From: Odoribacter sp.
GTDB taxonomy: Bacteria; Bacteroidota; Bacteroidia; Bacteroidales; Prolixibacteraceae
DNA length: 64,000 nucleotides
Assembly (NCBI GenBank): GCA_013824715.1
Contig: PNOH01000014.1
Location: 1-64,000, forward strand
Direction: 5' to 3'
Under the pieces are notes generated by a model. It was not told the origin of the DNA. It did not search any database and worked only from the letters and a program-made list of their open reading frames with translations. Numbering within the stretch: position 1 is the stretch's first letter; every line of letters begins with the position of its first letter. Below, piece after piece: positions 39,491 to 59,495 of this stretch. The position numbers and the translations under genes were made by a program.

Positions 39491-40480
39491 TCAGAACGAA
39501 CTATACCTTTTCAATATGCTTTCCAGTATTTCGCGGGTCAAATCAGGGAATCTGATCTGCAATGCAGTCGTATTCTGAATCCATTCTGTTAGTTCAGGTG
39601 CAGAATTTGTGAAATGATCGAGCACTTTTATTCCCATAGATTTCAGGTAAGCGGCATTGCAATATTGTTCATACTGATTTTTCATGGGTATGACACAAAG
39701 CTTCTTGCCCATGAAAATAGCTTCAGCAGGGCCTTCAAAACCAGCAGTACAGATTAATCCGGTACAATTAAGGAAACTTTTTGTAAAACTGTCGAGCGAA
39801 ACGGGTTGAAATTGAATGTTGCCAACTGTATAGTTATGCTTTGAATGTTTAGAGAAAACCTGCCATTCGATATCCGGAATCTGGGATAAAACATCCTGAA
39901 TTTGCTTATCGCTGTAAGCGGGTAAATAAACTGTGTAGTGGGGTTTAATTGTTGATTCAGTAGTTCGGATGGCCAGACGAATGACAGGAGGAAAAATATC
40001 AGGAGAGGACGGTTTAAAATTGAACCCATATTTAAAAGTTGCCGGAGCATATTTTTTCAGGATGAGTTTTCCAAAGAAATCGTTGAATTCGGGTTGGGGA
40101 GCTGAGGGATGTAAAACTGCATTTTGATGGCTGAGTCCGATGCACATCTTTCTTCGAAGCCAGCATGCCCAGGCTGATACTGGTTCAAAATCACTGATAA
40201 CCAAATCGTATTGATTGACAGGAAGGTTTTTTACGTCACGAAAAAACTTTATGACAGGCGTCTTTTGGATGGTCTTTAAAATATCGACTCCTCCATTCTG
40301 TCCCACCATAAAACTCATTCCGGACAGACGGTAATCGATCTTGAAAGATACCTTTAAATCGGATTGTGTGCCACTCACCAAAATATCGGTATCGGCCATC
40401 GATTTCAGGATCGGAACAATTTCGGTTGCCCTTGCCAGATGACCGTTTCCGGTGCCTTGTATGGCATAAAGAATTCTCAT
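39491..40480 (-). CDS. Glycosyltransferase (GT28-like, MJ1255/VC2487 type), likely glycolipid synthase
   Basis: 329 residues. Begins MRILYAIQGTGNGHLARATE, the GNGH loop of this GT-B group, and has the nucleotide-sugar side motif ICTAGFEGPAEAIFMGKKLC. No signal peptide or membrane segment. It follows the PlcP-like phosphoesterase by 33 bp on the same strand. In phosphate-starved bacteria a PlcP-Agt pair turns phospholipid into diacylglycerol and then glycolipid; this gene fits the second step. The sugar donor cannot be told. Confidence 0.78.
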   Translation of the reverse strand: MRILYAIQGTGNGHLARATEIVPILKSMADTDILVSGTQSDLKVSFKIDYRLSGMSFMVGQNGGVDILKTIQKTPVIKFFRDVKNLPVNQYDLVISDFEPVSAWACWLRRKMCIGLSHQNAVLHPSAPQPEFNDFFGKLILKKYAPATFKYGFNFKPSSPDIFPPVIRLAIRTTESTIKPHYTVYLPAYSDKQIQDVLSQIPDIEWQVFSKHSKHNYTVGNIQFQPVSLDSFTKSFLNCTGLICTAGFEGPAEAIFMGKKLCVIPMKNQYEQYCNAAYLKSMGIKVLDHFTNSAPELTEWIQNTTALQIRFPDLTREILESILKRYSSF

Positions 40481-40513
40481 GGATTACAATTGATGATTGG
40501 GCGCTGGGTTGGA

Positions 40514-41365
40514 TTAAAAGTAATATGGAACTTTCATTTCTTTCAGAATTGACCGGTACATCTGATTTTTATCGGGGATATAAAGTTCATCACCAGGTAA
40601 TTCCGGCTCCTCATCCGAATCAGATTTGAAATAGTTTAATGTCCAGTTTCCGTCGATGCACTCGGCCGCAGAAAAATGTTCAACCCAGTCTCCACAGTTA
40701 ATGTACCTAACCGTTCCCTTCTCGGTAGTGGTGGTTTTATCAACTGGAATATGCGTATGACCGCAAATAACCAAATCAATATTTTTACTTAGCGCAGCAT
40801 TGGCAATAGCCAGTTCGAAATTGGTCAAAACCTTTTTTTCTTTCAAAATGCGATCCTTCATGGATTTGTAAAGAAGCATATCTTTACCTCCAAAGATTCT
40901 CAATATAACATTCAGCGCTTTATTGATGCCTGTTAGTAAACCGTATGCTGCAGCACCAAATTTTGCAAGCCAGGGCGAATGATGGATGATATGATCAAAA
41001 ACATCGCCATGAAAAATCCATACTTTTTGATTTCCGACGGTCAGTTCAAGCTGATTGACAATGCTAAAATTGCCCAGTCTGGTGTTGTTGAACTTACGGA
41101 ACACATCGTCGTGATTGCCTGTAATATAAACTACCTGGATACCTTTTTCAATCATTTTTACCAACTGACGGATAACTTTCAAATGAGCTTTTGGAAAAAA
41201 ATTCCGGCTAAACCGCCATGAATCAATAATGTCGCCATTCAAAACCAGTGTTTTGGGCTGTATCGATTTTAAGTATTTAAGAAGGTGTTTGGCTTTGCTG
41301 GCCAGTGTTGCCAGATGTACGTCTGAAATGACTGAAATATCTAATTTCCGGATAGCTTCCTGCAT
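40514..41365 (-). CDS. PlcP-like metallophosphoesterase (phospholipase C for lipid remodelling)
   Basis: 283 residues of the LpxH-like calcineurin fold. Metal ligands: ISDVHL, LNGDIIDSW, YITGNHDD, FHGDVFDHI, ICGHTHIPV; the signature YINCGDWVEHFSA near the C-terminus is shared with PlcP, the Mn-dependent phospholipase C induced by phosphate limitation in alphaproteobacteria and SAR11. Lipid A LpxH enzymes are about 240 residues and lack this tail. The glycosyltransferase follows, and a candidate PhoB site lies 43 bp upstream. If right, it releases diacylglycerol from membrane phospholipids, sparing phosphate. Confidence 0.75.
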   Translation of the reverse strand: MQEAIRKLDISVISDVHLATLASKAKHLLKYLKSIQPKTLVLNGDIIDSWRFSRNFFPKAHLKVIRQLVKMIEKGIQVVYITGNHDDVFRKFNNTRLGNFSIVNQLELTVGNQKVWIFHGDVFDHIIHHSPWLAKFGAAAYGLLTGINKALNVILRIFGGKDMLLYKSMKDRILKEKKVLTNFELAIANAALSKNIDLVICGHTHIPVDKTTTTEKGTVRYINCGDWVEHFSAAECIDGNWTLNYFKSDSDEEPELPGDELYIPDKNQMYRSILKEMKVPYYF

Positions 41366-42110: not shown

Positions 42111-43214
42111 TCAGGATATGACATCCATTTCGGTTAAAACATCTTGGATAGCAATAAGCAACCGGTCAATATCTTCGAGATATAGCTGGCCAATATTCCC
42201 TATCCGGAAACAGTTGGTGTCGCTTAATTTTCCCTGATAAATAACCTGTCCGTGCTGGTGAAGCTTTTCATAGAACCGTGTAAAATCGAAATTTGGATGT
42301 TCCGGAAACAGGAAAGATGTAATGATGTATCCCTGATCTTTTTTGTTAAGGTAAGTTCGAAGACCCAAAACTTCAGTTCCTTCAATCAATCGGTGGTAGT
42401 TTTGGCGGTAGCGTTCGGATCGTTTTTCAATTCCACCTTCAGCCTTTAATTCTTCGATAGCTTTGCGGAATGCCAAAATCGTTTGAATTGGCGGGGTAAA
42501 GCGGAATTGATTGTTCTTTCTCATGTCGGCCCATTGGCTGTATAAATCGAGCGATATGGTTCGGGCTTGTCCGATGCAAGTCTGGAGGGTATTGTTTTTG
42601 GCAATTACAAACGAAAAACCCGGAACACCTTCGATACATTTATTTGAAGACGACACCAAAAAGTCAATGTCAAGCGCTTTCAGGTCAATCGGGACAGCCC
42701 CAAAACTGCTCATGGCATCAACAATATAAATTTTGTTGTACTTTCTGGCCACCAGGCCAACACCTTCAATATCATTGAATATTCCGGTTGTTGTTTCGCA
42801 ATGAACTATAGCCACGTGGGTTACAGTTTCATCCTTTATCAGCACTTCTTCTATATCTTCTGCCGGAGGAACAACGTTTTCTTTGTATTTTAAAGTGGTA
42901 GTCCTTATTCCGTAAACTTTGGCCATCTGTTTGATTCGGTCACCATACGTTCCATTGGTAATCAGAAGCAAATGTCCGTCGGGGGGAATCGCTGTTGAAA
43001 TGACTGATTCAACTCCAAAAGTCCCCGATCCCTGCATCAGGACGGTATCGTATCCTTCATCGCGGGTCACTCCGGCGAGGTGGAGCAATTCAAGCCGTAT
43101 TTCTTTTACCACTTCCAGAAATTCCATATCGCGCGAGCCCATGTCGTGAAGCATGGCTTCTTTTACTGAATATTTGGTGTTTATTGGTCCGGGGGTAAAT
43201 AATTTATTATCCAT
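42111..43214 (-). CDS. phnW: 2-aminoethylphosphonate-pyruvate transaminase
   Basis: 367 residues, PLP fold type I. Start NKLFTPGPINTKYSVKEAML and MGSRDMEFLEVVKEIR are specific to PhnW; the PLP lysine is in LVSSSNKCIEGVPGFSF. Converts 2-aminoethylphosphonate plus pyruvate into phosphonoacetaldehyde plus alanine. Last gene of a phnX-MFS-phnW transcript. Confidence 0.95.
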   Translation of the reverse strand: MDNKLFTPGPINTKYSVKEAMLHDMGSRDMEFLEVVKEIRLELLHLAGVTRDEGYDTVLMQGSGTFGVESVISTAIPPDGHLLLITNGTYGDRIKQMAKVYGIRTTTLKYKENVVPPAEDIEEVLIKDETVTHVAIVHCETTTGIFNDIEGVGLVARKYNKIYIVDAMSSFGAVPIDLKALDIDFLVSSSNKCIEGVPGFSFVIAKNNTLQTCIGQARTISLDLYSQWADMRKNNQFRFTPPIQTILAFRKAIEELKAEGGIEKRSERYRQNYHRLIEGTEVLGLRTYLNKKDQGYIITSFLFPEHPNFDFTRFYEKLHQHGQVIYQGKLSDTNCFRIGNIGQLYLEDIDRLLIAIQDVLTEMDVIS

Positions 43215-43298
43215 ATTTTTGAAAATAATTGTTTAATTAGCAACTAATTATAAATAATATCTAAAACTCAGGCTTTATTTATCTGTTCTATTTTATCC

Positions 43299-44624
43299 TC
43301 ATTGAATTTTTGCTGACATAGCCAAATCCTGAAAATTTCCCTGATTAACTTCAATTTCATCCTGATTTTCTTTACCGTAGTTCCATTTCAGGATAAGCAA
43401 CAAGGCAGCAATCAACGCAACAATTACGAATAACCGGAACAACGCATCCCAACCGTATTGGTCTGAAACAAAAGCCACTGCAAACGGCGAAAGCAACTGC
43501 CCGGCAGACCCAACGCCATTGATAAGCCCTGCCGCAAGCGCTGCCCCATGATTTTTCCCCATATCCATAGCTGCTGCGCCCGACATGAGCGAATCGGGTC
43601 CATACGTGAAGAATCCTATCAGTCCGATGGAAAAAATAGTGGGTACAATTCCCAGTGGGCTCAGATGTGGTTGAAGAAACAGAACGAAAGCCAAACCGAA
43701 CAACATGATAGAGCTTATGGGGAACCGACGGGTTTTATACAGGTAATCGGAGGCGAAACCCGCAGCGAGAATTCCAAGAAAGCCAAAAGCTTCATACGCA
43801 ATAGAAGTATAGCCAGCCCGCTCATCTGAATATTTAAGCGCTTCTGACAAATATAGCGGTAGCCAGAAAAGAAAAGCATATCGGGTAAATTTCACAAAAA
43901 AATACATGGCAGCGGCAATCCACACAGCTCCGTTTTTTAATACGGCAAGTTGTGCTTCCTTTTCTTTTCGCTTCCCTTTTTTTGTGTTGGTATCTCTTTC
44001 GAAAGGTTCCATTCCAACATCTACAGGGTTATTCCGGATAAAAGCGATATAAACCAGCGATATGACCAGGAGAAGAATTGCCGGAGCCAGAAAAACTCTT
44101 CTCCACGATAACTCGCTCAAAATATTCTGGTTGCTCAGCCAATAGGTTGCAAAAGCGGTTGCCGCCATTCCGCCAATCACGTAGGAGGTGGTCCAGAACG
44201 ACATCATCACACCACGCTCCTTTTTCCTGAACCATGGCGTCAGGTTTTTAATGAGTCCCGACCAGCCTGAGGATTGCCCGAAACCATTCAATCCCATCAG
44301 GAATACGAATGAACCGATAGTTCCCATCCAACCCATCAATAGATTAGAAATGACGGAGATCAGCAATCCAATTCCAACAATCAATCTGGGTCCTTTCCGG
44401 TCGCTCAGGTAGCCGTTCAGGAACTGGCCAAGCATGTAAGTGATGCTGTAAATTGTAATTACAAATGCGAACTCTTCTTTGGATGTATGCAGGTCGCGAC
44501 TCATTATTGGCATAACAACGCTAAAATTTTTCCGGCAAAAATACATACCGAAATAGGCCAGCCAGGTTAATGCAAATATCTGAACCCTCCATTTTTTCAA
44601 TTCATTTGAAATTGCTTTGGTCAT
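43299..44624 (-). CDS. MFS transporter of the organophosphate:phosphate antiporter group
   Basis: 441 residues and 12 hydrophobic segments. The FGMYFCRKNFSVVMPIM segment in TM1 and YLSDRKGPR in the loop are signatures of the GlpT/UhpT group. Placed between phnX and phnW, it should import aminoethylphosphonate or a relative across the inner membrane. phnX ends 9 bp upstream; phnW starts 84 bp downstream. Confidence 0.85.
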   Translation of the reverse strand: MTKAISNELKKWRVQIFALTWLAYFGMYFCRKNFSVVMPIMSRDLHTSKEEFAFVITIYSITYMLGQFLNGYLSDRKGPRLIVGIGLLISVISNLLMGWMGTIGSFVFLMGLNGFGQSSGWSGLIKNLTPWFRKKERGVMMSFWTTSYVIGGMAATAFATYWLSNQNILSELSWRRVFLAPAILLLVISLVYIAFIRNNPVDVGMEPFERDTNTKKGKRKEKEAQLAVLKNGAVWIAAAMYFFVKFTRYAFLFWLPLYLSEALKYSDERAGYTSIAYEAFGFLGILAAGFASDYLYKTRRFPISSIMLFGLAFVLFLQPHLSPLGIVPTIFSIGLIGFFTYGPDSLMSGAAAMDMGKNHGAALAAGLINGVGSAGQLLSPFAVAFVSDQYGWDALFRLFVIVALIAALLLILKWNYGKENQDEIEVNQGNFQDLAMSAKIQ

Positions 44625-44633
44625 AATGCGATT

Positions 44634-45446
44634 CTATTTCTTAAATCCGGCTTCAATTCTTTCGTCAATTTCTTCCAGAATTGGCCAGCAATCCCAAACA
44701 CCTTCGGCCACATAGTCAGCACCTGCATTCAACAGTTTCCGTCCGGCAAGGGCAATTTTTTCTTCCAACCAAACAAAATCAGCATTTTCGGCTTCTGCCT
44801 GAGACAATCCTATTTCGTTGCCCGATTTGGTCAAGCCAATAGTCCACGTTCCGGCATTTATTCCCTCCTGAATGTCGGCCACCGTGTCGCCGATCTTTAC
44901 GACTTGACTTAACGGGAAAACGTTCATTTTTTCGCAGTTCCGGTAAATCATCCAGGGCAAAGGGCGACCGGCAGGTACTTCCGAAGAATTGACCACTGAA
45001 TCAGGGCCCAATCCGGCAGCAGATGTGACCGGGAGGATATTTTTCATCATTCCGGCAACATATCCGGTGGTTGAGCCTACCTTAATGCCCTGCGCTTTCA
45101 GAGAATTAATCAACACAATGGATCCGGGAATTGGTTCACAGTAATCGGCTACAAGGGCAGCCAGTGCCGGCTCCAAATATTCATAGATCACATTAATATC
45201 GTCTTCTGAAGGAATTCTCCCATATTCGGAAATCCATTGTTTCTGAATGGTATCGAGCCTGAAAAGCTCACGGACATGATCTTTTTTCGCCAGTCCCATT
45301 GGGCCTCGGGCTTCATCCATGCTTAAGCAGATGTCGTTTGCTCTAAATACTTCGATAAATACCTGTGCAGGAGCCATGCAACCATAGTCAATAATAGTTC
45401 CGGCCCAGTCGAAAATGACAGCTTTAATGTGTTTTAATTGATGCAT
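44634..45446 (-). CDS. phnX: Phosphonoacetaldehyde hydrolase (phosphonatase)
   Basis: 270 residues, HAD superfamily. Nucleophile in VIFDWAGTIIDYG; Schiff-base lysine in MGLAKKDHVREL, unique to phosphonatase; IGDTVADIQEGINAGTWTIG is the acidic motif. Breaks the C-P bond of phosphonoacetaldehyde to acetaldehyde and phosphate. First gene of the phnX-MFS-phnW unit; a terminator at 45485 separates it from susCD upstream. Confidence 0.95.
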   Translation of the reverse strand: MHQLKHIKAVIFDWAGTIIDYGCMAPAQVFIEVFRANDICLSMDEARGPMGLAKKDHVRELFRLDTIQKQWISEYGRIPSEDDINVIYEYLEPALAALVADYCEPIPGSIVLINSLKAQGIKVGSTTGYVAGMMKNILPVTSAAGLGPDSVVNSSEVPAGRPLPWMIYRNCEKMNVFPLSQVVKIGDTVADIQEGINAGTWTIGLTKSGNEIGLSQAEAENADFVWLEEKIALAGRKLLNAGADYVAEGVWDCWPILEEIDERIEAGFKK

Positions 45447-45484
45447 ATCGGAGGGTAAAGTTTATGTGTAAATGTTGTTACAGT

Positions 45485-45517
45485 AAAACCCTGACAGCAT
45501 CTACTGTCAGGGTTTTT
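45485..45517. terminator. Terminator between susD and phnX
   Basis: Stem AAAACCCTGACAG / CTGTCAGGGTTTT with a short loop. On the minus strand it ends the susCD transcript, so phnX needs read-through or its own promoter in the 38 bp or so that remain. Confidence 0.85.
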
Positions 45518-45545
45518 GAAAATAGGGGGATATTTGTGATGCTGT

Positions 45546-47036
45546 TTATTTGATGATCCACATTTCTGAATTGATGTCATCGGTTTCGGCGCCAAACTGA
45601 TTTTTTAGCGCTGCTTTGTAATTATCGGCATTGGTAGTCCGTTCTGAACTCGGGTACTGCCAGCGTTTGGCAATACGTCCGCTATTGGCAGTACCAGCCC
45701 CGGTCAGGAATGTTGGTACACCGGTACGACGGTAGTTGTTGTAAGCTTCCCAACCCGAATTCTGGAAAAATGCCAGATATTTCTGGGTAAGAATCTGTTT
45801 TAGCGCTTCAGGGGTTGTACTGTTTAGTTTTACTGTTGGCTGGGCATAATATGCATCCCATTTGGCATCGACAGATGGAACACCATGGAATGTCCATGAA
45901 GCTTTTATCCCTTTGGTGTAATAATCTTCGGCATTACCGGCCACCCAACCGCGGTTAATGGCCTCGGCAATGTTGAAACACATTTCAGGATATCCAATCT
46001 GTATGGCAGGTTCGCCAAAATATGAACTGTAATATTTGTTTTTGCTGATGGGCGAGTATTCACCTTTCAACATTTTCGTTGACATATCGTCGAGACTTTC
46101 ACCCGAGCTTGCCCCAACATAAGCTTCAAAGTCGGCAATTGTAAGTCCGGCTTTAATTTTAGCAGGAGCTGGATCTGCTACAATAAACGTACGTGGGTCT
46201 TTCAGTGATGCCAGCGTGTTCAGATATGTGGCCGACATGTTGTTACGTGTGGCAGTAAATCCATAATTATCCGGATTGAGCGGGTATTTATCGGTAACGG
46301 AGTTGTAACTGAATTTCAGATTATCGTCTAACGATGTCATTAACGGATATTTGGTCGGATTAGTTAGTACATCAGAGAACAGCTTTTTGATGTTCAGGTC
46401 AGCATCAGCTTCTTTTTTACTTAAAGTAATCAATACACGCAACTTGTAAGTATTTACCACTTTTTGCCATTTTTTCAAATCGTTCCCAAGCATAAAATCG
46501 CCGGTCAATGATTTGTCGAGATTGTTGTTGAGTACCTGTAAATCGCTGTTTGCTTCTTCCAGCCAGATAAGTGCTTGTTTGAATACCGCTTTCTGAGAAT
46601 CGTACTTTGGCTTTGTGTTTTCCAAACTTTTTAGGGCATCGGTTAACGGAATATCGCCCAGTTTCATGCTCATTTCAACAAAATAATAAGCATTCAGGAA
46701 CTTCCCGATTGCTGCATACGGATTGTTATCGGCCATACCAACGCGTTTGGATTCGGCAATCATCTGGGCCACGTTTTTCATCTGGGTATAATTGAAACTG
46801 GTATTGGTCCAGTCGTATTCCTGATCGCTGTAATAGGCATAATTACTGCACCAGAACTGGTTCCATCGCTGGATATCGCTCCAGGGTGAATTATATATGC
46901 CATATAGAACATTGGTGAAAACTAACGATGGCGGTACTTCTCCCGGACGGTTCGGATCTTTTTCCAGTTCTTCAAAATTGTTACATGATGATAATGCCAC
47001 TGCGAGCATGATCACAAGCAGAAATATATTTTTCAT
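45546..47036 (-). CDS. SusD/RagB-like outer-membrane lipoprotein (SusD_2 type)
   Basis: 496 residues. Lipobox MLAVALSSCNN; the start of mature protein (FEELEKDPNRPGEVPPSLVFTNVLYG) and the SDIQRWNQFWCSNYAYYSDQ segment are typical of the SusD_2 group. C-terminal YLAFFQNSGWEAYNNYRRTGVP is the usual wall of the ligand site. Binds ligand at the surface and lids the SusC barrel. No glycoside hydrolase is adjacent, which is unusual; phosphonate genes are adjacent instead. Confidence 0.92.
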   Translation of the reverse strand: MKNIFLLVIMLAVALSSCNNFEELEKDPNRPGEVPPSLVFTNVLYGIYNSPWSDIQRWNQFWCSNYAYYSDQEYDWTNTSFNYTQMKNVAQMIAESKRVGMADNNPYAAIGKFLNAYYFVEMSMKLGDIPLTDALKSLENTKPKYDSQKAVFKQALIWLEEANSDLQVLNNNLDKSLTGDFMLGNDLKKWQKVVNTYKLRVLITLSKKEADADLNIKKLFSDVLTNPTKYPLMTSLDDNLKFSYNSVTDKYPLNPDNYGFTATRNNMSATYLNTLASLKDPRTFIVADPAPAKIKAGLTIADFEAYVGASSGESLDDMSTKMLKGEYSPISKNKYYSSYFGEPAIQIGYPEMCFNIAEAINRGWVAGNAEDYYTKGIKASWTFHGVPSVDAKWDAYYAQPTVKLNSTTPEALKQILTQKYLAFFQNSGWEAYNNYRRTGVPTFLTGAGTANSGRIAKRWQYPSSERTTNADNYKAALKNQFGAETDDINSEMWIIK

Positions 47037-47074
47037 TTTTTTTATATGATTGTGAGTTATTAAAATGACATGTG

Positions 47075-50000
47075 TTAGAAAGTGATATTCAGGTTAAAAC
47101 CAAAACGTCTTGTTGTCGGGGTTTGCAAGCCTGAAGATCCGTTGGTTCCTGCATATTGTTCGATGTCGATATCGCTTCTTTCGGCAAAATACAAGAGGTT
47201 ACGGCCCACGAATGAGATATTGGCTTGTTTGATGAAGGTATTGTTCAGGATTTTTTGCGGAAGGTTGTAAGTCAGTACCACTTCGCGCAATTTCACATAG
47301 GTACGGCTGATGGCATATGATGAATTGGTACCGTAATAACGGCTGATGTAATCCTGTACATAAGTTGCAGTTGTATTTGGTGCGTACTGGAGTTTATCGT
47401 AATTGGTAACTTGCCCGTCAGTATCATAAACAATTGCCACCCCATTGCTTACCACAACACCTTCACCTATGTACGATTTAATTCCTTTGGTGTCGTTTAT
47501 CCTGGCTACGCCCATATCGCCCAAAACGGTATTAATGTGGCGGCCTCCCTGGTATGTTTTCTGTTCAACATAGTCGAGAATAGTGCCACCAAAACGTCCG
47601 TCGAACTGGAATTTAAGGCTTATATTTTTATACGACAGGGTATTATTAATCGCCCCGGCCCAATCTGAGTTGGCATTTCCGAGATATTGAGGAACCGAGT
47701 TCCTGATCGGACGGCCACTTGCATCGTTGATGATTTGTCCATCGGCATTCCGCACAAAGTCAGAACCGTACATTTTATCCATTCGGTCGCCTACTTTTAA
47801 ATAAATGTTCAGTTTTTCAACTCCCGGATAAATTTCCTTCAGGTATTGCTGATTGGTTGAATAATTGGCCGAAACATCCCAGCTAAAGCCATCTTTATTA
47901 TGTATGGGTGAAGCTGAAGCTGAAATCTCGATTCCTTTTCGTTCTACTTTAATACCATTTACCAATGCTGAATTATAACCGGTAGCTCCTGAAATTGGCA
48001 ATGAGAAGATTTTTGGGCCATCGATGCTTGAGAAATAAGTCACATCAAATACAAGCTTATTGTTGAAAAGACCTACGTCAGTACCAATTTCCCATGCTGA
48101 GCTTGAACTTGGTTTCAGGTCAGGGTTCGAAATGGTGTTGGTGTATGATGCAGCCGAGTTGCCCTGTATCAGGCTAATATTGTATGAAGACGAATTCTGG
48201 TAGGTTGGTCCATCATACGGAGAATAGTAATTTCCGCCATAACCCAATACGTTGAATCCGAGGAATTGATAGGTAGGCCCAATCGTTGACTGAGAAAGTG
48301 CGCTGCCCACATTAGCGTATGAACCCCTCAGTTTCCATGATTTGACATACGGTATAGTTATCAGTTTTGACAGTTCGATACTGGTAGAAACTGAAGGATA
48401 GAAATACGCGTTGTTTCCTGAAGGTAAAGTTGAGTTTTTGTCGGTTCGTCCGGTTAACGAGAGGGTCAGGAAATCGTCGTAAGTGAGGTCGGCAGTTGCG
48501 TAAGCGCTGAGCACCAGCATTGGAGCATAGAAACTATATGATTTAACTGGATTCTTGGAGTTGCTCAGATTGTACCATTCCGGAACGTTCAGGTAATCGG
48601 TGGTGGCAAAACTGCTCCTGAAATCGTAAGTACGCAGGTTTCCCCCGGCGGTGGCATGTAAGCTAAGTTTGGGGATCACATAGCGGTCGTACGACAAAAG
48701 AATATCGGTGTTGTTCTCAAACAAATTACGTTTGTCTTCGCGGTAATCGCCAAGACCGGCTTCGCGTCCATAAGGGTGGGCCGAGAACGGAAGTTTTTCG
48801 GAGCGGAATAAATCGTATGAAGTGATGGCTGTACGCGCCTGTAAATTCAGGTAATTATTGAACTTATAGTTGATTGATGCATAACCGGTCAGGTCGTTTT
48901 TGTAGTGTCCGCGAAGCCATTCGTACGACATAAAATACGGGTTGTGGTAACGTTGGTATTCGGCATAAATCGACTGTACACCTTCTTTCCCGGGCTGCCA
49001 GTAGTTGCGCATATCATTAATATCCCAGTCGGCTCCACCCCATGCTATAATGTTATAAATAATACTGTTCGGACCGTAGTTCACATCAGGGACATTGGGC
49101 GTGTACTGACGGCTGTAAGCCATATTTGCCTTTAAGCTAAGCTTCTTCGAAATTTTGTAACCTCCCGACAAGCTAAAATTGGTAATATTCAGCGAAGTAT
49201 TTGGTACAATTCCTTTCTGGTAGCTGTGCGAAGCAGAAACCCGGAGATCGTATTTTTCGTTACCTGAAGCCACAGAGAAACTGTTGTTCGATAAAAGTCC
49301 AGTTTCAAGGAAACGTTTCAGGTTATCTTTTCCGCGGGCAACCCAGGGAGTACCGGTTCGTTTGCCAGTTGCGGGATCGATTGGGCTGTCATACTGAGGA
49401 ATAAGCTGGCCTTCGAAACGTGGCCCCCAGATATCATAGTCGCCATCATTCAAACCGCCTCCTTTACCATCAACAAACTCGTACTTTCCATGGTCGCCAG
49501 GTCCGTATTCGTCCTGAACTTCCGGAATAGCAATGAATCCACTCTCGGCCATAGTGCTTGAGTTGAATTCAACAGAGAAACCTCGTTTGTCTGTTGTTCC
49601 GCGTTTTGTAGTTATCTGTATAGCTCCGTATTGTCCTCTGGAACCATATAACGCTGCAGCGGATGGGCCTTTCAAAATGGTATAACTTTCAATGTCATCA
49701 GGATTGATGTTCCAGGTGTCGGTTTGGACCGGAACGCCATCAACTACATAAAGCGGAGTGTATCCACGAAGTAAAACAGAGGGAGCTCCAAGTAGTTCGG
49801 CAGAAGCGCCAACTGTCAACCCGGCCACTTTACCTGTAAGGGCATTGATCGGGTTGGGTTCCCTGGCTTTTACCAGTTCACTTCCCTTTACATCCTGAAC
49901 AGCAAAACCGATGGTACTTTTCACCTTTTCGATTCCGAGTGCAGTAACAATAACTTCTTTAATCTCCTGTTGCGAATCATCTAAAATAATACTGATTACT

Positions 50001-50299
50001 TTTTGGTTGCCAACGGCAACTTCAACAGTTTCGAACCCGACGTAAGATGCCACCAGAATATCTTTAGGCTCTGCCTGAATGGCAAAATGACCTTTATCGT
50101 CCGACAAGGTTCCGATAGTGGTTCCTTTCACCAGAATGGTGGCACTTGGAAGGCTCTCCCCATTGCTGGTTTTCACCGTTCCTTCAATATTTGCCTTTTG
50201 GGCAAACACCATCGTTACAATCAGGAGGAACGTAATAACTAAAAAGATGAATTTTTGCATTTTAAAGTGTTTAGAATTAATACTTGTTTTTTTAGACAT
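47075..50299 (-). CDS. SusC/RagA-type TonB-linked outer-membrane protein
   Basis: 1074 residues. Signal peptide, CarboxypepD_reg domain (ANIEGTVKTSNGESLPSATI), plug (GIEKVKSTIGFAVQDVKGSE, LLRGYTPLYVVDGVP, YTILKGPSAAALYGSRGQYG), a 22-strand barrel and C-terminal FGFNLNITF. Imports ligand across the outer membrane with TonB energy. susD follows 38 bp downstream. The start at 50299 (MSKKTSINSKHF) may be preceded by a better one at 50260 (MQKFIFLVITFLLIV), which begins directly with the signal peptide. Confidence 0.94.
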   Translation of the reverse strand: MSKKTSINSKHFKMQKFIFLVITFLLIVTMVFAQKANIEGTVKTSNGESLPSATILVKGTTIGTLSDDKGHFAIQAEPKDILVASYVGFETVEVAVGNQKVISIILDDSQQEIKEVIVTALGIEKVKSTIGFAVQDVKGSELVKAREPNPINALTGKVAGLTVGASAELLGAPSVLLRGYTPLYVVDGVPVQTDTWNINPDDIESYTILKGPSAAALYGSRGQYGAIQITTKRGTTDKRGFSVEFNSSTMAESGFIAIPEVQDEYGPGDHGKYEFVDGKGGGLNDGDYDIWGPRFEGQLIPQYDSPIDPATGKRTGTPWVARGKDNLKRFLETGLLSNNSFSVASGNEKYDLRVSASHSYQKGIVPNTSLNITNFSLSGGYKISKKLSLKANMAYSRQYTPNVPDVNYGPNSIIYNIIAWGGADWDINDMRNYWQPGKEGVQSIYAEYQRYHNPYFMSYEWLRGHYKNDLTGYASINYKFNNYLNLQARTAITSYDLFRSEKLPFSAHPYGREAGLGDYREDKRNLFENNTDILLSYDRYVIPKLSLHATAGGNLRTYDFRSSFATTDYLNVPEWYNLSNSKNPVKSYSFYAPMLVLSAYATADLTYDDFLTLSLTGRTDKNSTLPSGNNAYFYPSVSTSIELSKLITIPYVKSWKLRGSYANVGSALSQSTIGPTYQFLGFNVLGYGGNYYSPYDGPTYQNSSSYNISLIQGNSAASYTNTISNPDLKPSSSSAWEIGTDVGLFNNKLVFDVTYFSSIDGPKIFSLPISGATGYNSALVNGIKVERKGIEISASASPIHNKDGFSWDVSANYSTNQQYLKEIYPGVEKLNIYLKVGDRMDKMYGSDFVRNADGQIINDASGRPIRNSVPQYLGNANSDWAGAINNTLSYKNISLKFQFDGRFGGTILDYVEQKTYQGGRHINTVLGDMGVARINDTKGIKSYIGEGVVVSNGVAIVYDTDGQVTNYDKLQYAPNTTATYVQDYISRYYGTNSSYAISRTYVKLREVVLTYNLPQKILNNTFIKQANISFVGRNLLYFAERSDIDIEQYAGTNGSSGLQTPTTRRFGFNLNITF

Positions 50300-50377
50300 A
50301 GAAATGGCTGTTTACAACATTTTAGTGCCATAAATACCAGTAAGAATCAATAAGAAATGGATTTTGAATGGGAGAGC

Positions 50378-50917
50378 TTAGAATACCAGAATTACCCGTT
50401 TGGTAAACAAATTTGTTAGTGAATTTGCATCATTGCTTTCGCCGATGGCTTTTTCAAAACTTTCGGTTTCGGCGGTAAGTACATTGAATGCTATATCCAA
50501 AACTTTGTTAAAATCATTCGAAGCCGTTTCTTTGCTGATCTCTCCTTTTTTAACCGATTTTTTCAGGTGGCGTTCAATCTTTTTGACTGCATCGTATATC
50601 ACCGGTTTGCGGATCATCGTGCGGGTTTGCGGGTTTCCGGGTACGATCGGAACTTCGTAGGTATATTTTGATTCTAACAAATATAATTTTTCGGAAATTT
50701 TCTGCCCAAAAGCATGTTCTCCGATTATATCTTTCGAATCGGAATTCAAATCATAGTCGTTTAATGAAGCCCTGAATTCAAAAACAGGAAGACTGCTTGA
50801 ATTTGAAATAGTTTTTTTAGCGTCCCCCCGAAAGGCCATTACTAAAGCATCCTGTGCAATTAGTTTTCCTGAAATCAATAACAACATAATGGTAAGCATT
50901 TGTAATCCTCGTTTCAT
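50378..50917 (-). CDS. Secreted protein of unknown function upstream of susC
   Basis: 179 residues with a signal peptide (MKRGLQMLTIMLLLISGKLIA). The rest has no domain that I recognise; it is rich in Lys/Ser/Asp, with KKIERHLKKSVKKGEISKE suggesting helices. It precedes susC by 78 bp on the same strand, so it may belong to the same transcript. Confidence 0.6.
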   Translation of the reverse strand: MKRGLQMLTIMLLLISGKLIAQDALVMAFRGDAKKTISNSSSLPVFEFRASLNDYDLNSDSKDIIGEHAFGQKISEKLYLLESKYTYEVPIVPGNPQTRTMIRKPVIYDAVKKIERHLKKSVKKGEISKETASNDFNKVLDIAFNVLTAETESFEKAIGESNDANSLTNLFTKRVILVF

Positions 50918-51046
50918 GATAAGTTTCTTTTTTTGTGCGTTGCAAAATTGTTTTAACTTTATTTAACTTCGATTGAAGGTGAATTAAACTTTTATTAATT
51001 ATCGGTAACAGTTTTCACTAAAAATTAAACTCCTGAATTATCCGTG

Positions 51047-52408
51047 TCAATTGATTTGCCTTGCATGTATTTCAAATACTTCAGATAATACTGAAATAGC
51101 CGTGTGTAAATCTTCACGGCTGATGGTGAGTGCCGGCGAAAGTTGCAGCACATTTCCCTGCGAAACTTTAAAACTCAAGCCATGATGCATGCACCCGTAC
51201 ATGATTTGTTCGGCCTCGTTGGTTGCTTTTTCTTTTGTTGCCCGATCTTTCACCAGTTCAATGCCCCATAAAAGACCAAGTCCGCGAATATCACCGATTA
51301 ACGGAAACCTTTCTTTTAGCTTATTCAGTTCTGTTTGCATCCATATTCCATCATCAAAAACTTTTTGCAGAAGGTCCTCTTTTTCGATATAGTTGATGGT
51401 TGCCAAAGCTGCCACACTGCCCAACGGACTTTTTTCGTGGGTGTAATGTCCAAGAGAAACATCTCCGGCAACATTATAGCTGTCGCGGGCGATCATGGCA
51501 GCGAATGGTATTATTCCGCCACCCAGCCCTTTTCCCAGGCAAAGAATATCTGGTTCGATGCCGAAGTTTTCAAAGGCGAACATCTTTCCGGTGCGGCCAA
51601 GAGCAATTGGAATTTCATCGAGAATGAGGAGAACTCCGTGGTTGCGGCAAATTTCGCGAACCCTTTGCCAATAGGCTTTGGTTGGTATTTGCACATCGGT
51701 ATTCCGGATTGTTTCCACCAGAAATGCTCCAACATCACCTTCTTTTTTAATTACATATTCCAGAAAATCGGCATAGTTTAACTGATCGTCTTCAGTCTCT
51801 CCGAAAATTCCCCGGTAAGTGGTTGGCGGTGGGATACAGATCACTCCGGGCATCATTGGCCCCATGTACTTTTTAAATACGGATTCGCCTCCGGCCGAAA
51901 TTGCATCAAGCGATGCTCCATGAAAGGAATCCCAATGCGAGACAATTTTGTGTTTTCCGGTAACAACCCTCGCCAATTTCAAAGCTATGCCAATAACCGA
52001 AGTTCCGCCGGGGGCAAATAAACTCCGGTTGAGGTCACCGGGCATCAGTTCTGCTAATTTCCGGGCAAACGCAACGGCAGGCTGATTGGTGTACCGGCGC
52101 GGCGAAAAAGATAATTGCTGCATCTGTTCAAAAATCTGACTGATGATATAGTCGTTTCCGTGGCCCAACTGGTGAACATTATTCCCGTGGAAATCGAGCA
52201 GATACCTTCCTGAGAGGGTTTCCATTCCGCTACCTTTACTGGTTTTTAAAACATCCAGGCAAGGAGTGGACATCGACTGGTGCAGAAAATAACGGGCATC
52301 ATTTTCCAGAATCTGCAGGGTTTGTGGATCAGTAATTTTCTCATCCCATTTCCGGCGTTCGTCCGAAATATTGATATCACCTTCGGTTAGTAATAAACTT
52401 TTATTCAT
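51047..52408 (-). CDS. Class III aminotransferase-fold enzyme, probable PbfA-type hydroxy-aminoethylphosphonate lyase
   Basis: 453 residues, PLP fold type I class III. DFHGNNVHQLGHGN near residue 75, LFAPGGTSVIGIALKLAR, the aspartate in LLILDEIPIALGRTG, and the PLP lysine in ILCLGKGLGGG. The N-terminus (NDARYFLHQSMSTPCLDVLK) matches proteins that accompany phnW/phnX and are named (R)-1-hydroxy-2-aminoethylphosphonate ammonia-lyase (PbfA), which yields phosphonoacetaldehyde for PhnX. The phosphonate neighbours support this; an ordinary transaminase is the alternative. Confidence 0.75.
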   Translation of the reverse strand: MNKSLLLTEGDINISDERRKWDEKITDPQTLQILENDARYFLHQSMSTPCLDVLKTSKGSGMETLSGRYLLDFHGNNVHQLGHGNDYIISQIFEQMQQLSFSPRRYTNQPAVAFARKLAELMPGDLNRSLFAPGGTSVIGIALKLARVVTGKHKIVSHWDSFHGASLDAISAGGESVFKKYMGPMMPGVICIPPPTTYRGIFGETEDDQLNYADFLEYVIKKEGDVGAFLVETIRNTDVQIPTKAYWQRVREICRNHGVLLILDEIPIALGRTGKMFAFENFGIEPDILCLGKGLGGGIIPFAAMIARDSYNVAGDVSLGHYTHEKSPLGSVAALATINYIEKEDLLQKVFDDGIWMQTELNKLKERFPLIGDIRGLGLLWGIELVKDRATKEKATNEAEQIMYGCMHHGLSFKVSQGNVLQLSPALTISREDLHTAISVLSEVFEIHARQIN

Positions 52409-52563: not shown

Positions 52564-52580
52564 TGTTACAGGGCGTTACA
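52564..52580. promoter_or_regulatory. Candidate PhoB-like repeat between pbfA-like and Lys-rich genes
   Basis: TGTTACA at 52564 and CGTTACA at 52574. The repeat units match the porin and phoU sites, but the period is 10, not 11 bp, so the call is tentative. The 306-bp divergent gap has no gene. Confidence 0.35.
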
Positions 52581-52714
52581 GATTAGTTAAGGGTTGAAAT
52601 CGAACTGAAATGATTAATCAGATTGCAATTATTCAGAATTTAATTCACACACAACAAATTGGTATTTAATTTTTTAAATGCTATTTTTAACTCAAAATTG
52701 ATACACTACGAAAC

Positions 52715-56308: not shown

Positions 56309-58081
56309 TTATTTTTTAGAAAGTGAGAATAAAAACTCCAATCCTCCTTCGACTCTATTTCGAACCGAAATCTCGCCTTTGTGTAATAAAATGGCATTTT
56401 TAACTATTGAAAGGCCCAGGCCTGTACCTCCATTTTCGCGCGAACGGCCATAATCAACCCGGTAGAACCGTTCAAAAATGCGGGGCAGATGTTCTTCCGA
56501 AATGCCATTACCCGAATCGGCATACTGAAAATAGTAGAATTTATCGTCTTCCAGGTATTTTCGGATGGATATAACTGTGTTGTCGCCGGAATAGTTGATT
56601 GAATTTTCAACCAGATTCTGGAAAACCGAGAAGAGCAGTGATTCGTTTCCGTTTACAACGACTTCGTTGTCAACCTCAATACGGTATTCCATATTCTTGT
56701 TGGTAAGCCTGCTTTTCAGATTTTCAATGACATCGCGGATAACAGGTTTCAGCATCAACGGTTTGAATTCGAATAATCCACCAGCATCTTCAATGTTGTT
56801 CAGCAAGGAAATGTCATTGAGCAAGTCGGTCAGCCGTTCAGATTGGGCAAATGCTTTTTCAAGAAAATAGCGCTGTTTATCTATTGGGATACTCTGATTA
56901 TTAATTAGTGTTTCGAGGTAGCCTTTTATGGATGATAAAGGCGTTTTCAACTCATGGGCAATGTTTGAAGTAAGTTGTTGTTTCAGCAGTCGTTGTTTTT
57001 CGGGACGTGTCACATCACTAATCAGTACTTCAAAACTTTTATCCACAAAGATGATGCATCTGAGCTGAAAGAATTTTTCGCTTTTTTCTATGGTATATTC
57101 AATCTGTGGAAGCTCTTTATGCTGGGCTTGAATGTCCTGTCCCCGGTATTGATCAACAAATTCAACAATTTTACTGAATTCGGGGATACTAAAAATATGC
57201 TCGGCCGAAATAGTTGACTTATCTGAAATCATGTTGATGAATTGAATAAAATGACTGTTGGCCAGTATTTTATGCTTTTCAGGAGAAAAAATAGAAATGC
57301 CCTCTTTAAGAACCTGCAAGTGCCCGTACAATTTTTCCTTTTCGCCGGTTAACTCGTCTTTGGCTGTTTTCAGATTATCGTAAATTTGAATGATTTGTCG
57401 TCGGATTACGCCCAGCTCGTTGTCCTGAAAATTACTGTCCATTTTTGAAATATCTTCGTTTAATCCGGCCTTCAGCGCAAAATCTTTCAGTTTGATGATA
57501 AAATCACTCAACCTGCGGGTAGTATAATGCAGCAAAATCCACATTAGCAGAAAAAGGAAAACCACGAAAAACAGGAAAAAATGTTCGGTCTTCAGGAATT
57601 TGATGATATCCACATTGTAAACGGCTGCAGTGCGTACCACATAGTTTTTACAGTTTTTGGCGTAGTAATAGAATTTCTGATTGGTAGTTTGAGAAACCCT
57701 GATACTGGAACCTTTGCCTGAATGGACAGCTTTTTGGACTTCCGGCCTCAAGAGGTGGTTCTCAATGTGTTTGACATCAGCCACAAAACTATCGTACAGC
57801 ACTTTGCCATCCATATTCATGATGGTGAGCCGGGTGTTTTCGATGGGTAACAGGCTCTTTAAGGTATCAAGCGATTTAAAGTCACCCGTTTCAAATATCT
57901 TTTTATGCTCGATGTAACGATGGGCCACTTCCGAAATGTTATCCAGCTTATTTTCGAGTTGGCCAGTCCTGTAACTTTTTTCACGATCGTACTGGTAACC
58001 CAGCACAGCCAGGGTAAAGATGGAAAAGACTACAAAAAAGTTCGTAAAAATTCGTCGACGAAAAGTACGTTGTATGACCAC
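56309..58081 (-). CDS. phoR: Phosphate-type sensor histidine kinase
   Basis: 590 residues: TM1 near 10-29, an extracytoplasmic domain of about 130 residues, TM2 near 166-186, then a HAMP/PAS-like part, HisKA with His376 in SNIAHELKTPLSSIKG and HATPase (N-box FQNLVENSINYSG, G-boxes DSGNGIS and GGTGLGLSIV). The order phoU-phoB-phoR and the nearby pst genes identify it as PhoR. It starts 23 bp after phoB. Confidence 0.92.
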   Translation of the reverse strand: MVIQRTFRRRIFTNFFVVFSIFTLAVLGYQYDREKSYRTGQLENKLDNISEVAHRYIEHKKIFETGDFKSLDTLKSLLPIENTRLTIMNMDGKVLYDSFVADVKHIENHLLRPEVQKAVHSGKGSSIRVSQTTNQKFYYYAKNCKNYVVRTAAVYNVDIIKFLKTEHFFLFFVVFLFLLMWILLHYTTRRLSDFIIKLKDFALKAGLNEDISKMDSNFQDNELGVIRRQIIQIYDNLKTAKDELTGEKEKLYGHLQVLKEGISIFSPEKHKILANSHFIQFINMISDKSTISAEHIFSIPEFSKIVEFVDQYRGQDIQAQHKELPQIEYTIEKSEKFFQLRCIIFVDKSFEVLISDVTRPEKQRLLKQQLTSNIAHELKTPLSSIKGYLETLINNQSIPIDKQRYFLEKAFAQSERLTDLLNDISLLNNIEDAGGLFEFKPLMLKPVIRDVIENLKSRLTNKNMEYRIEVDNEVVVNGNESLLFSVFQNLVENSINYSGDNTVISIRKYLEDDKFYYFQYADSGNGISEEHLPRIFERFYRVDYGRSRENGGTGLGLSIVKNAILLHKGEISVRNRVEGGLEFLFSLSKK

Positions 58082-58104
58082 GGTAAGTTCTGTATTAGTT
58101 TGTC

Positions 58105-58785
58105 CTAGTTCTCAAAGCAATATCCATATCCTGACCGGCCTTTGATGAAATTGCCGTATTCGCCGATTTTTTTTCTTAACCGGGCAATATTTACGTCAAC
58201 ATTTCGCTCAGTAACGATCACGTCATCGCTCCAGATGCGGTCCAGAATTTCCTGGCGGCTGAGGTATTTGCCCTTGTATGAAATCAGCATAGTCAATATC
58301 TCAAATTCTTTGCGGGTAAGCAATATCGGTTCATTATCAATGCTTACTGATTTGCGGTTCAAATCAAGTTCCAGGTTGTCAATGGTAATCACTTTAGGTT
58401 TGATTTCAACGCTTTTACCACGGCGCAACACGGCTTTGATCCGGGCCACCAGTTCTTTAATCGAAAAAGGTTTTGACAGGTAATCGTCGGCGCCCACATT
58501 AAATCCGGTAAGCATATCGTTTTCAGTTTCGCGTGCTGTCAGAAAAATAATGGGGATTGAAAGTCCCAGTTCCTTTCTGATTTTATCGGCCAGTTTGAAA
58601 CCCGACATACCGCCCATCATCACGTCGAGCAACAACAGGTCAAAACGCTCAATCGATTTGGAGAGAGCTTCTTCACCAGAATAAGCCACTTCGATCCCGA
58701 AACCTTCGCTTGCCAGATTGAACTGAAGAATCTCGCACAGATCCTTTTCATCGTCAACTACCAATATTTTATAATCCTGATTCAT
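58105..58785 (-). CDS. phoB: Phosphate regulon response regulator
   Basis: 226 residues. Receiver domain with Asp54 in LLLDVMMGGM and Lys in DYLSKPFS; OmpR/PhoB-type winged helix with LTRKEFEILTMLISYKGKYLSRQE. Transcription activator that binds tandem 11-bp repeats. It starts 29 bp after phoU and is followed by phoR. Confidence 0.94.
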   Translation of the reverse strand: MNQDYKILVVDDEKDLCEILQFNLASEGFGIEVAYSGEEALSKSIERFDLLLLDVMMGGMSGFKLADKIRKELGLSIPIIFLTARETENDMLTGFNVGADDYLSKPFSIKELVARIKAVLRRGKSVEIKPKVITIDNLELDLNRKSVSIDNEPILLTRKEFEILTMLISYKGKYLSRQEILDRIWSDDVIVTERNVDVNIARLRKKIGEYGNFIKGRSGYGYCFEN

Positions 58786-58814
58786 AGTTTGCTGAGGAGT
58801 TATTTTTTCCTGTT

Positions 58815-59495
58815 TCAGGGTCGCTTGTGGCGAATATCTTTTCCTTCGCAGGAATAATAAGAAGCTTCTGCAATGTTGGCCGCATGATCCGAAATCCGTT
58901 CAATGGCAGCAACCATCTCTTTGATTTTGATAAAACTGAGCAGGATATTTTTGTCTTCGGCAACCAGGTTTGCCCTTTCGGCAACCTTTTTCAACATTTT
59001 GTGATTGAACTCATCAACGATAGACTCTGATTTGATCGTCCATATAGCCAATTCCATATCCTGATTAATAAACGACAACATCGAACGGCGGGCCATATCG
59101 ACACTTAAGTCCATCATCTTTGATATAAATCCTGAAAGGCTGGAGTAAACTTCCTGATTTTCGATGCCAACAAGCAATTTGGTAATGCTTATGGCCAGGT
59201 CTCCAATCCGTTCGAGACTGATTACAATCCGGTAACAGGCAATTAATTTTCGAATCTCTGAGGCTACCGGCTGATAGAGCGCGATGGAATTGATAATATT
59301 TTCGCTGACCCTGACTTCAAGCTTATTGATTTTGCTTTCATCCTTATTTAACGCATTAAGCTGATCGTCATCAAAAAGTAATTTTTCCGTTGAAATCAGT
59401 TTCTTAACTACATCAAGCTGATTGAGTACCATGTTGGCAAGTTTCTCATAATCAGACAAAATATTAAGAATTGCTTCGTCCTTCTTTTGTGGCAT
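58815..59495 (-). CDS. phoU: PhoU-family phosphate signalling protein
   Basis: 226 residues, all-helical with two PhoU repeats. Metal-binding pattern LERIGDLAISIT in the first and IERISDHAANIAE in the second. Links PstB state to PhoR. First gene of the phoU-phoB-phoR operon, 30 kb away from pst rather than adjacent. The start at MPQKKDEAILNIL is natural. Confidence 0.93.
   Translation of the reverse strand: MPQKKDEAILNILSDYEKLANMVLNQLDVVKKLISTEKLLFDDDQLNALNKDESKINKLEVRVSENIINSIALYQPVASEIRKLIACYRIVISLERIGDLAISITKLLVGIENQEVYSSLSGFISKMMDLSVDMARRSMLSFINQDMELAIWTIKSESIVDEFNHKMLKKVAERANLVAEDKNILLSFIKIKEMVAAIERISDHAANIAEASYYSCEGKDIRHKRP

Follow-up and report, generated by a model that had tools for sequence, protein, structure and literature searches.

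A SusCD pair as the probable outer-membrane step of a phosphonate utilisation locus in Bacteroidota

The window analysed here is a stretch of 64,000 nucleotides from Odoribacter sp. (Prolixibacteraceae; assembly GCA_013824715.1, contig PNOH01000014.1, forward strand), taken from a genome of 4.6 Mb in 85 contigs. The object of the study is a pair of susC and susD genes, of a type that mostly serves sugar import, embedded in a locus of phosphonate catabolism at positions 42111–52408. The locus comprises seven genes, all on the minus strand, in the transcription order pbfA, a gene for a secreted 179-residue protein, susC, susD, phnX, a gene for a carrier of the major facilitator superfamily (MFS), and phnW. 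These genes, along with a hairpin in the gap between susD and phnX, are as follows.

51047..52408, minus strand: pbfA, PbfA lyase; NCBIfam NF049939, 702 bits (cut-off 525); motif LGKGLGGG at 291
50378..50917, minus strand: 179-residue protein, apparent signal peptide as judged by eye; its gene immediately precedes susC
47075..50299, minus strand: susC, TonB-dependent outer-membrane barrel; TIGR04056, 505 bits (cut-off 368); Pfam CarbopepD_reg_2 and Plug
45546..47036, minus strand: susD, surface lipoprotein, lid and ligand binder; Pfam SusD-like_2 (PF12771), 224 bits (cut-off 27)
about 45487..45514, minus strand: terminator-like hairpin between susD and phnX, from folding of the 99-nt gap
44634..45446, minus strand: phnX, phosphonoacetaldehyde hydrolase; TIGR01422, 306 bits (cut-off 220); DWAGT at 13, KKDHVR at 54
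43299..44624, minus strand: MFS carrier resembling organophosphate antiporters; PF07690; best NCBIfam match TIGR00881, 246 bits, under the cut-off of 408
42111..43214, minus strand: phnW, 2-aminoethylphosphonate–pyruvate transaminase; TIGR02326, 457 bits (cut-off 401)

Gene set, order and strand agree with the initial annotation for all seven genes, and PbfA, PhnX, PhnW and SusC score above curated cut-offs. PhnW and PhnX are assigned at the equivalog level, and so is PbfA. All motifs expected for active PhnX, PhnW and PbfA are present in the window proteins. We take the lysine of LGKGLGGG to be the pyridoxal phosphate lysine of PbfA and the DWAGT and KKDHVR motifs of PhnX to be catalytic; the assignment of such roles to the motifs of all three enzymes is our presumption. 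TIGR00881, the best match of the carrier, is the PgtP subfamily of phosphoglycerate transporters.

SusC has the composition of the SusC/RagA family, namely a TonB-linked barrel, a plug and an N-terminal CarboxypepD_reg domain, and scores 46.7 bits with the SusC signature TIGR04057 (cut-off 46.2). SusD, encoded beside it, has the SusD fold and a lipobox-like LSSC whose cysteine 18 is invariant in 45 aligned sequences. The AlphaFold2 model of SusD has a predicted local distance difference test score (pLDDT) of 90; its best four PDB chains are all SusD homologues with template-modelling (TM) scores of 0.80–0.83 by query length, the best one being 3mx3 (TM 0.83). Ligands of these structures were considered as a guide to the substrate and proved uninformative, as 3mx3, 3ejn and 4ler are structural-genomics entries with no ligand in their titles. 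Among the charged and aromatic residues of the conserved set, W58, Y66, Y69, Y74, K112, R264, Y336 and E342 are shared by 95% or more of 80 clade members and differ in three of three outgroups; they are noted as targets only. The 179-residue protein has no Pfam or NCBIfam match, and its AlphaFold2 model (pLDDT 73) has no PDB match at E≤0.001. Its homologue immediately precedes susC in eight of ten close loci and is found in the close clade only.

The gap between susD and phnX folds at −23.7 kcal/mol (z −5.8, equalled by none of 200 shuffles), and the terminator proposed earlier at this place is thus real as a hairpin. A simple terminator scan omitted it, probably since the extension of the stem consumes the T-run, and folding was used instead. 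Given the hairpin, susCD and phnX likely belong to two separate transcription units.

Pfam and NCBIfam scans revealed no carbohydrate-active enzyme in 42111–52408, neither a glycoside hydrolase nor a polysaccharide lyase. The nearest glycosidase found, from glycoside hydrolase family 95, is at 19397–21715, 20.4 kb from phnW; for the open reading frames (ORFs) scanned, this agrees with the earlier statement that this side has none within 20 kb, the ORFs at 21986–24704 and 26522–28036 being outside the Pfam scan. On the other side of the cluster are glgC (NTP_transferase and LbH_GLGC domains) and a glycogen-synthase-like gene, the latter named from sequence.

Relatives of the window SusD were collected by a scan with a SusD alignment over one genome per species (84,980 species), where 209 stretches matched one of two peptide patterns. 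The neighbourhoods of the best 80 of 155 confirmed relatives (SusD identity 47–84%) were studied, with flanks of up to 10 kb on each side; this set is motif-chosen and includes near-copies and related genera. PhnW, PhnX, PbfA, Phn-HD, TIGR03364, PhnX-like and HpnZ were counted as phosphonate-catabolism genes, and at least one of them was present on the fetched flank in 53 of the 80 loci. Nine of the 53 carry the first set, PhnW/PhnX/PbfA, as the window does. In 43 loci a second set is present, consisting of the Phn-HD oxygenase (TIGR03276), the FAD oxidoreductase TIGR03364 and the PhnX-like hydrolase TIGR03351, and one locus (L102) has both sets round one susCD. A profile search at E≤1e-35 with 100 submitted members confirmed 39 of 39 Phn-HD, 30 of 30 TIGR03364 and 31 of 31 PhnX-like proteins; three further members of the PhnX-like cluster were outside this search, and PhnX-like scores can fall under the curated cut-off. 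At least two genes of the second set occur in 33 of the 44 loci having any, and the first-set loci with a single gene are L069 (pbfA) and L095 (phnW).

The distribution of the sets follows the relatedness of SusD. Among the ten close relatives (69–84% identity), eight have at least one first-set gene and seven have both phnW and phnX. Of the remaining two, L071 is on a contig of only 3.6 kb, and the phosphonate genes of L065 are elsewhere in the genome. In a quick SusD tree the window groups with ten other rows in a supported set, and nine of these 11 rows, the window included, carry the first set; the closest named relatives of its SusD are metagenome-assembled genomes (MAGs) of Prolixibacteraceae and a MAG labelled Chitinophaga. 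Hence one catabolic pathway gives way to another around the same SusCD clade, with the first set in the nearest relatives and the second in most others. This is the strongest argument that SusCD would recognise something that both pathways share, since the pathway changes while the clade stays. The same arrangement is seen in an independently annotated record, the 125-kb Hymenobacter plasmid NZ_CP043649.1 (21177–46688, L238), with the row MFS, Phn-HD, susC, susD (44% identity), sulfatase-like, alkaline-phosphatase-family, HAD (other strand), XRE and TIGR03364. The plasmid cluster is adjoined by PhoX and a Na/Pi symporter.

The strength of the linkage was assessed in a sample of 395 genomes of the class that was not chosen by gene. 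The SusD clade (E≤1e-70) was found in 20 genomes, Phn-HD (E≤1e-30) in 39, PhnX (E≤1e-40) in 6, and Phn-HD or PhnX in 43; G379 and one of two G970 matches stand at the margin of the clade, being only 37–38% identical. Phn-HD or PhnX is present in 18 of the 20 genomes with the clade versus 25 of the 375 others (Fisher p 2e-17, which ignores kinship and, like all Fisher values here, overstates independence). In 17 of the 20 genomes, from 11 genera, Phn-HD or PhnX lies within 10 kb of the clade susD. The exceptions are G007 and G379, with neither Phn-HD nor a PhnX-like gene, and G253, with Phn-HD/PhnX on another contig. Other SusD genes of 19 of these genomes (G379 left out; 152 PF12771 stretches, including those of the clade, and 397 PF14322 stretches) served as a control. 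Among the matches listed, which were read by eye, no SusD gene outside the clade lies within 10 kb of Phn-HD or PhnX, and the nearest PF14322 matches outside the clade are about 11 kb off (G214, G1006).

PhnX itself is rare in the phylum: the order has it in 9 of 295 genomes at E≤1e-40, and it scores above the cut-off in 4 of 395 genomes of a phylum sample. Because it passes the cut-off in so few genomes, the clustering of susCD with PhnX is, as judged by gene distribution, more than chance. Three of the 12 PhnX neighbourhoods that were read have SusCD inside the cluster. In L061 and L062, from one genus, susC and susD are 52% and 50% identical to those of the window and follow phnX-phnW. In L048, a divergent susCD (32% and 27% identity to the window) is followed by a gene of 402 codons, two calcineurin-like phosphoesterase genes, phnX, MFS, pbfA, a gene of the sulfatase/metalloenzyme superfamily and phnW. 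Two further loci of the 12, L051 and L053, have a SusC-like gene 7–8 kb away. In L102, which is of the same kind as L061 and L062, PhnX and PhnW are 69–73% identical to those of the window, whereas SusCD are only 50–52% identical; this mismatch suggests horizontal transfer of phnXW. The search for susCD next to phnWX in related genomes, by which the initial annotation had proposed to check its reading, thus gave a positive result with controls.

From the gene identities, the conserved linkage, the pathway exchange and the linkage with phosphoesterases described below, all directly established, we infer that susCD probably provides the passage through the outer membrane in a locus for phosphonate utilisation; the inferred part comprises transport, substrate, order of steps and regulation. 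It is likely that the ligand is a phosphonate-containing molecule. Comparative evidence thereby supports the initial reading, in which the pair imports phosphonates or phosphonate-bearing lipids or glycans.

The form of the ligand is suggested by phosphoesterase genes. Among phosphonate loci, 40 of the 53 possessing this SusCD contain them, as against none of 21 that lack it; the profiles were built from families of SusCD loci, a bias favouring those loci. Among the 21 comparison loci, L051, L053 and L206 have another SusC-like gene, and L054, L198 and L209 are short; L056 was left out. The enzymes are of three types, namely PF04185 with a beta-propeller, a PF01663/PF00884-type protein of about 362 residues and a calcineurin-like protein of about 309 residues. 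Two Dyadobacter phosphoesterases that were scanned (about 555 residues) belong to PF01663. Most phosphoesterases have apparent signal sequences (by eye, N-termini of 18 members). Outside the 21 loci, phosphonate clusters with no SusCD in the fetched stretch hold PF04185 genes (L233) or a PF01663 gene of about 555 codons (L230), and L236 and L237 hold an unscanned ORF of a size like that of the L230 enzyme; the genomes of L230, L233, L236 and L237 have SusCD elsewhere.

Because phosphoesterases accompany this SusCD, an esterified phosphonate, that is, a phosphonolipid or a phosphonoglycan, is favoured, and within the phosphonate reading it is fairly probable; the phosphonate-bearing lipids or glycans considered in the initial annotation thus gain further support. 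The non-ester form of the same reading would be an importer of small free aminophosphonates (2-aminoethylphosphonate, its hydroxy or N-methyl forms). The window cluster, which has no phosphoesterase of its own, speaks for this form, as do SusD residues Y66, Y69, Y74 and R264, which hardly or never vary within the clade and are replaced by other residues in each of three outgroups. The 21 phosphonate loci that manage without this SusCD argue against it, as does the tracking of this SusCD by phosphoesterases. Moreover, free aminoethylphosphonate is small enough for porins. A small ligand has a precedent in NanOU, a SusCD-like pair for a small, non-polymeric ligand, different in that its substrate is sialic acid (PMC3969230, in the part consulted). 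On balance we consider import of free aminophosphonates rather improbable. For the window the ester claim is weaker than for the clade, since its cluster has no phosphoesterase. The own genome has a relative of the PF04185 enzyme, which is 41% identical and lies at an end of the window's contig, about 43 kb past pbfA, and a second, more distant PF04185 relative elsewhere.

Besides the absence of a phosphoesterase from the window cluster, several observations weigh against the role of the pair in phosphonate uptake. The hairpin separates susCD from phnX. Phosphonate loci without this SusCD exist (the 21 examined), and SusCD is therefore an addition to the pathway and not a requirement. None of the listed phosphonate genes is found in 27 of the 80 loci; DUF5690 alone is present in one of these, and the other 26 lack it as well. 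Dyadobacter accounts for 12 of the 27, which have long flanks and adjoin a polA-like gene, and 11 are on contigs shorter than 10 kb or ending less than 2 kb downstream of susD. A gene with a 3-keto-disaccharide-hydrolase domain is near susCD in ten of these 12 Dyadobacter loci (L098, L101, L105, L106, L111, L116, L120, L122, L123 and L125), in a block that also has a sigma factor, a cupredoxin-domain gene and FecR (nine of ten), and another substrate in Dyadobacter is possible. A gene of glycoside hydrolase family 1 (GH1) is near susCD in 3 of the 80 loci. The annotation of neighbour families is partial: of the recurrent ones still unannotated, ten were scanned.

These neighbours bear on the explanation that the pair is an ordinary importer of glycans or peptides that is adjacent to phosphonate genes by chance. 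In addition to the Dyadobacter 3-keto-disaccharide-hydrolase-domain and GH1 genes, a prolyl-oligopeptidase gene is near susCD in 11 loci, all from Dyadobacter, and the SusD fold is ordinary, its nearest solved relatives being structural-genomics SusD homologues. The specific linkage in 17 of 20 sample genomes, with none among other SusD genes listed, argues in the other direction. The Dyadobacter and GH1 findings made us lower slightly our confidence in a phosphonate-containing ligand and raise slightly that in chance adjacency, which nevertheless is very unlikely. Synteny with glycan genes, named in the initial annotation as an outcome that would speak against its reading, was found as a minor feature only, in the loci just listed.

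A genome-wide check covered 15 of the 27 loci without phosphonate genes; the other 12 are mostly short contigs. Phn-HD was found in one of the 15 genomes (none of the 12 Dyadobacter) and a PhnX-like gene in all 15. The PhnX-like neighbourhoods fetched in eight of these genomes all contain further phosphonate-type genes, named by BLAST to representatives. In five Dyadobacter neighbourhoods PhnX-like, TIGR03364, PbfA (65–68% identical to that of the window) and DUF5690 are together; the PbfA of L230 was confirmed by profile, too. In the genome of L065 (Prolixibacteraceae), MFS (75%), PhnW, PbfA and PhnX-like are together, and the genomes of L126 and L133 also have phosphonate-type genes. The possibility that loci without phn genes refute the link was dropped, given that a PhnX-like gene was present elsewhere in each of the 15 genomes checked.

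Two of the five Dyadobacter phosphonate clusters (L231, L235) hold a second type of SusCD. This second lineage occurs in four phosphonate loci.

L048: 15721–19901
L204: 15967–19901
L231: 11060–16039
L235: 11586–16533

SusC proteins of the two Dyadobacter loci are 75% identical to each other and 40–42% identical to those of L048 and L204, which are 47% identical; all are 32–34% identical to the window SusC. In L076 and L079 another divergent SusCD stands directly beside the clade pair.

The MFS carrier of the window may be replaced in many relatives by DUF5690 (PF18943), which was found in 36 of the 80 SusD loci (e.g. L085: 10003–11286 and L049: 8497–9852). Among phosphonate loci, it is present in 35 of the 53 having SusCD and 12 of the 21 lacking it. 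This membrane family adjoins phnX/phnW or Phn-HD/TIGR03364 in many Bacteroidota, with SusCD present or not. A full-text literature search found DUF5690 named in no paper, and one compared pair of DUF5690 and the window MFS showed no significant BLAST likeness. DUF5690 is a candidate inner-membrane phosphonate carrier.

The proposed route is as follows. At the cell surface, SusD would bind a molecule bearing an aminophosphonate, which TonB-powered SusC would move into the periplasm. Then, in most relatives, the aminophosphonate head group would be freed from the lipid or glycan ester by an exported phosphoesterase whose gene is near susCD; in the window genome the closest such enzyme is encoded about 43 kb away. 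The MFS carrier, or the DUF5690 protein in many relatives, would carry the free aminophosphonate into the cytoplasm. There PhnW would convert 2-aminoethylphosphonate, and PbfA (R)-1-hydroxy-2-aminoethylphosphonate, to phosphonoacetaldehyde, which PhnX would split into acetaldehyde and phosphate. A tentative generalisation, to which we give slightly less than an even chance, is that at least two SusCD lineages of Bacteroidota serve phosphonates, phosphonolipids and phosphonoglycans being captured whole and cleaved by exported phosphoesterases of the alkaline-phosphatase superfamily and the calcineurin-like type, with the head group passing via MFS or DUF5690 carriers to two interchangeable pathways of carbon–phosphorus (C–P) bond cleavage.

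The window cluster is flanked by genes of phosphate nutrition, and candidate regulatory sites were found in its intergenic regions.

56309..59495, minus strand: histidine kinase, response regulator and PhoU (PhoR/PhoB/PhoU-like block); HATPase_c/HisKA, Response_reg/Trans_reg_C and PhoU domains
28693..32468, minus strand: PstB/PstA/PstC/PstS-like phosphate ATP-binding cassette (ABC) transporter; ABC_tran, two BPD_transp_1 and PBP_like_2; the Pst names are our own
39491..41365, minus strand: glycosyltransferase and PlcP-like metallophosphoesterase; Glyco_trans_1_3, Metallophos_2
52564..52581, minus strand: repeat CTGTAAC-GCC-CTGTAACA, possible PhoB-type site, about 155–170 bp upstream of pbfA
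45476..45483, minus strand: single CTGTAACA, 30 bp upstream of phnX

This context is relevant to another explanation, namely that the pair is a general importer of organophosphates (phosphate esters, phospholipids or nucleotides) of the phosphate-starvation response, similar to the PusCD pairs of Flavobacterium, with phosphonate genes adjacent only via a shared Pho regulon. In line with it are the phosphoesterases recurring in SusCD loci, PhoX and the Na/Pi symporter beside the Hymenobacter cluster, and the PhoU/two-component and Pst-like genes flanking the window cluster. Genes for PlcP-like proteins and MJ1255-type glycosyltransferases, thought to remodel lipids under phosphate limitation, occur in the window and together near susCD in 11 of the 80 loci (L107, L112, L124, L140 and others); the window glycosyltransferase and PlcP-like proteins are 36% and 43% identical to those of L107, and the window genes are possibly under phosphate control. 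Lidbury lists genes of such type as lipid remodelling (PMC8115612, in the part consulted). On the other hand, the pair recurs not just with phosphatases but with phosphonate enzymes, of which there are two alternative sets; the 12 Dyadobacter genomes with a separate pair keep a PhnX-like gene; and a cupin-XRE regulator near susCD in 11 of the 80 loci suggests substrate control there. We regard a general organophosphate importer as unlikely and prefer a phosphonate-containing ligand.

The repeat CTGTAAC-GCC-CTGTAACA is the sole match in the window at up to two mismatches, with 0.12 expected; a match also turned up in 10 of 100 shuffles. Four copies of CTGTAACA are present in the window (33925, 45476, 52564 and 59676; 1.4 expected), before pst, phnX, pbfA and phoU, each copy being outside ORFs of at least 130 codons. 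With one exception, the relatives lack CTGTAACA upstream of the cluster: nine loci contain six matches, one of them before the 179-residue protein gene. In the own genome, a Pho box pattern with an 11-bp period has nine matches versus four for the reversed control. Pho control of the cluster is suggestive only: the earlier idea of a single regulon is favoured by CTGTAACA before phnX and pbfA and disfavoured by its lack of conservation in relatives.

Two neighbouring regions are noted in addition. A TonB-dependent receptor and a protein sorted by the type IX secretion system (34315–38859) share the start region with the Pst-like block and are possibly another phosphate-starvation uptake pair. 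A very lysine-rich ORF of 129 codons with no family assignment (52715–53104) diverges from pbfA, and a similar-looking ORF of 167 codons is near susCD in L065.

The closest published system is PusCD, the SusCD pairs of Flavobacterium induced by phosphate depletion (PMC8115612, in the part consulted). As in the window, these pairs are accompanied by organophosphorus enzymes instead of carbohydrate-active ones, and one sentence of that paper co-localises PusCD complexes with phosphonate-degrading enzymes among others; the string 'phn' is absent from its main text, and no phn gene is named there. The two systems are set apart by listed domains, the two PusD listed by locus tag being PF07980/PF14322 and the window SusD PF12771, and none of the 80 SusD relatives, many of which are MAGs, is titled Flavobacterium. 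Low-phosphate induction is the defining trait of PusCD. The initial annotation makes no mention of this precedent. Beyond the one sentence on co-localisation, a full-text search of open papers, with subscription papers and preprints outside it, brought up no description of a SusCD locus for phosphonates, and PMC10752948 mentions phosphonates only as predicted biosynthetic clusters.

The locus resembles a polysaccharide utilisation locus in uniting SusC/SusD architecture, exported hydrolases, an inner-membrane carrier and cytoplasmic catabolism, and differs from it in that neither glycoside hydrolases nor polysaccharide lyases are encoded in the window cluster, whose catabolic enzymes cleave a C–P bond. 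Like the PhnWX hydrolytic pathway with PbfA (PMC8154272 and, for PbfA enzymology, PMC12366243, both in the parts consulted), it has phnW, phnX, pbfA and a carrier in one cluster, to which the window adds an outer-membrane TonB-dependent pair. In the sections available of PMC10590968 and PMC10574752, a characterised PbfD is annotated as TIGR03364, and enzymes of the PbfD type produce phosphonoacetaldehyde from N-methyl-2-aminoethylphosphonate or, in part, from 2-aminoethylphosphonate. The phosphonate transporters of the latter review (2023) are, in the part consulted, mostly ABC and symport/antiport systems, mainly of the inner membrane; its main text has no 'TonB' and 'outer membrane' once, for Pseudomonas Pho-response proteins. 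Genes of AepP, the 2-aminoethylphosphonate permease of Pseudomonas putida, stand beside PhnWAY or PhnWX, including in a Bacteroidetes strain (PMC8316502, in the part consulted). The window MFS was compared with AepP by description only, and its score with the NCBIfam organophosphate subfamily is under the cut-off.

Phosphonates are an important share of organic phosphorus, and their passage through the outer membrane of Gram-negative bacteria, above all that of lipid- and glycan-bound forms, has hardly been addressed. A SusCD clade whose genes go with phosphonate catabolism across several orders would, at the gene level, widen the role of SusCD from carbon to phosphorus nutrition. It would also supply marker genes for the use of bound phosphonates and give testable functions to DUF5690, the PF04185/PF01663 enzymes and the 179-residue protein. 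If the tentative generalisation to at least two lineages is true, uptake of esterified phosphonates by these loci would be of the selfish kind, and their SusCD pairs would be the first importers of phosphonates in the outer membrane.

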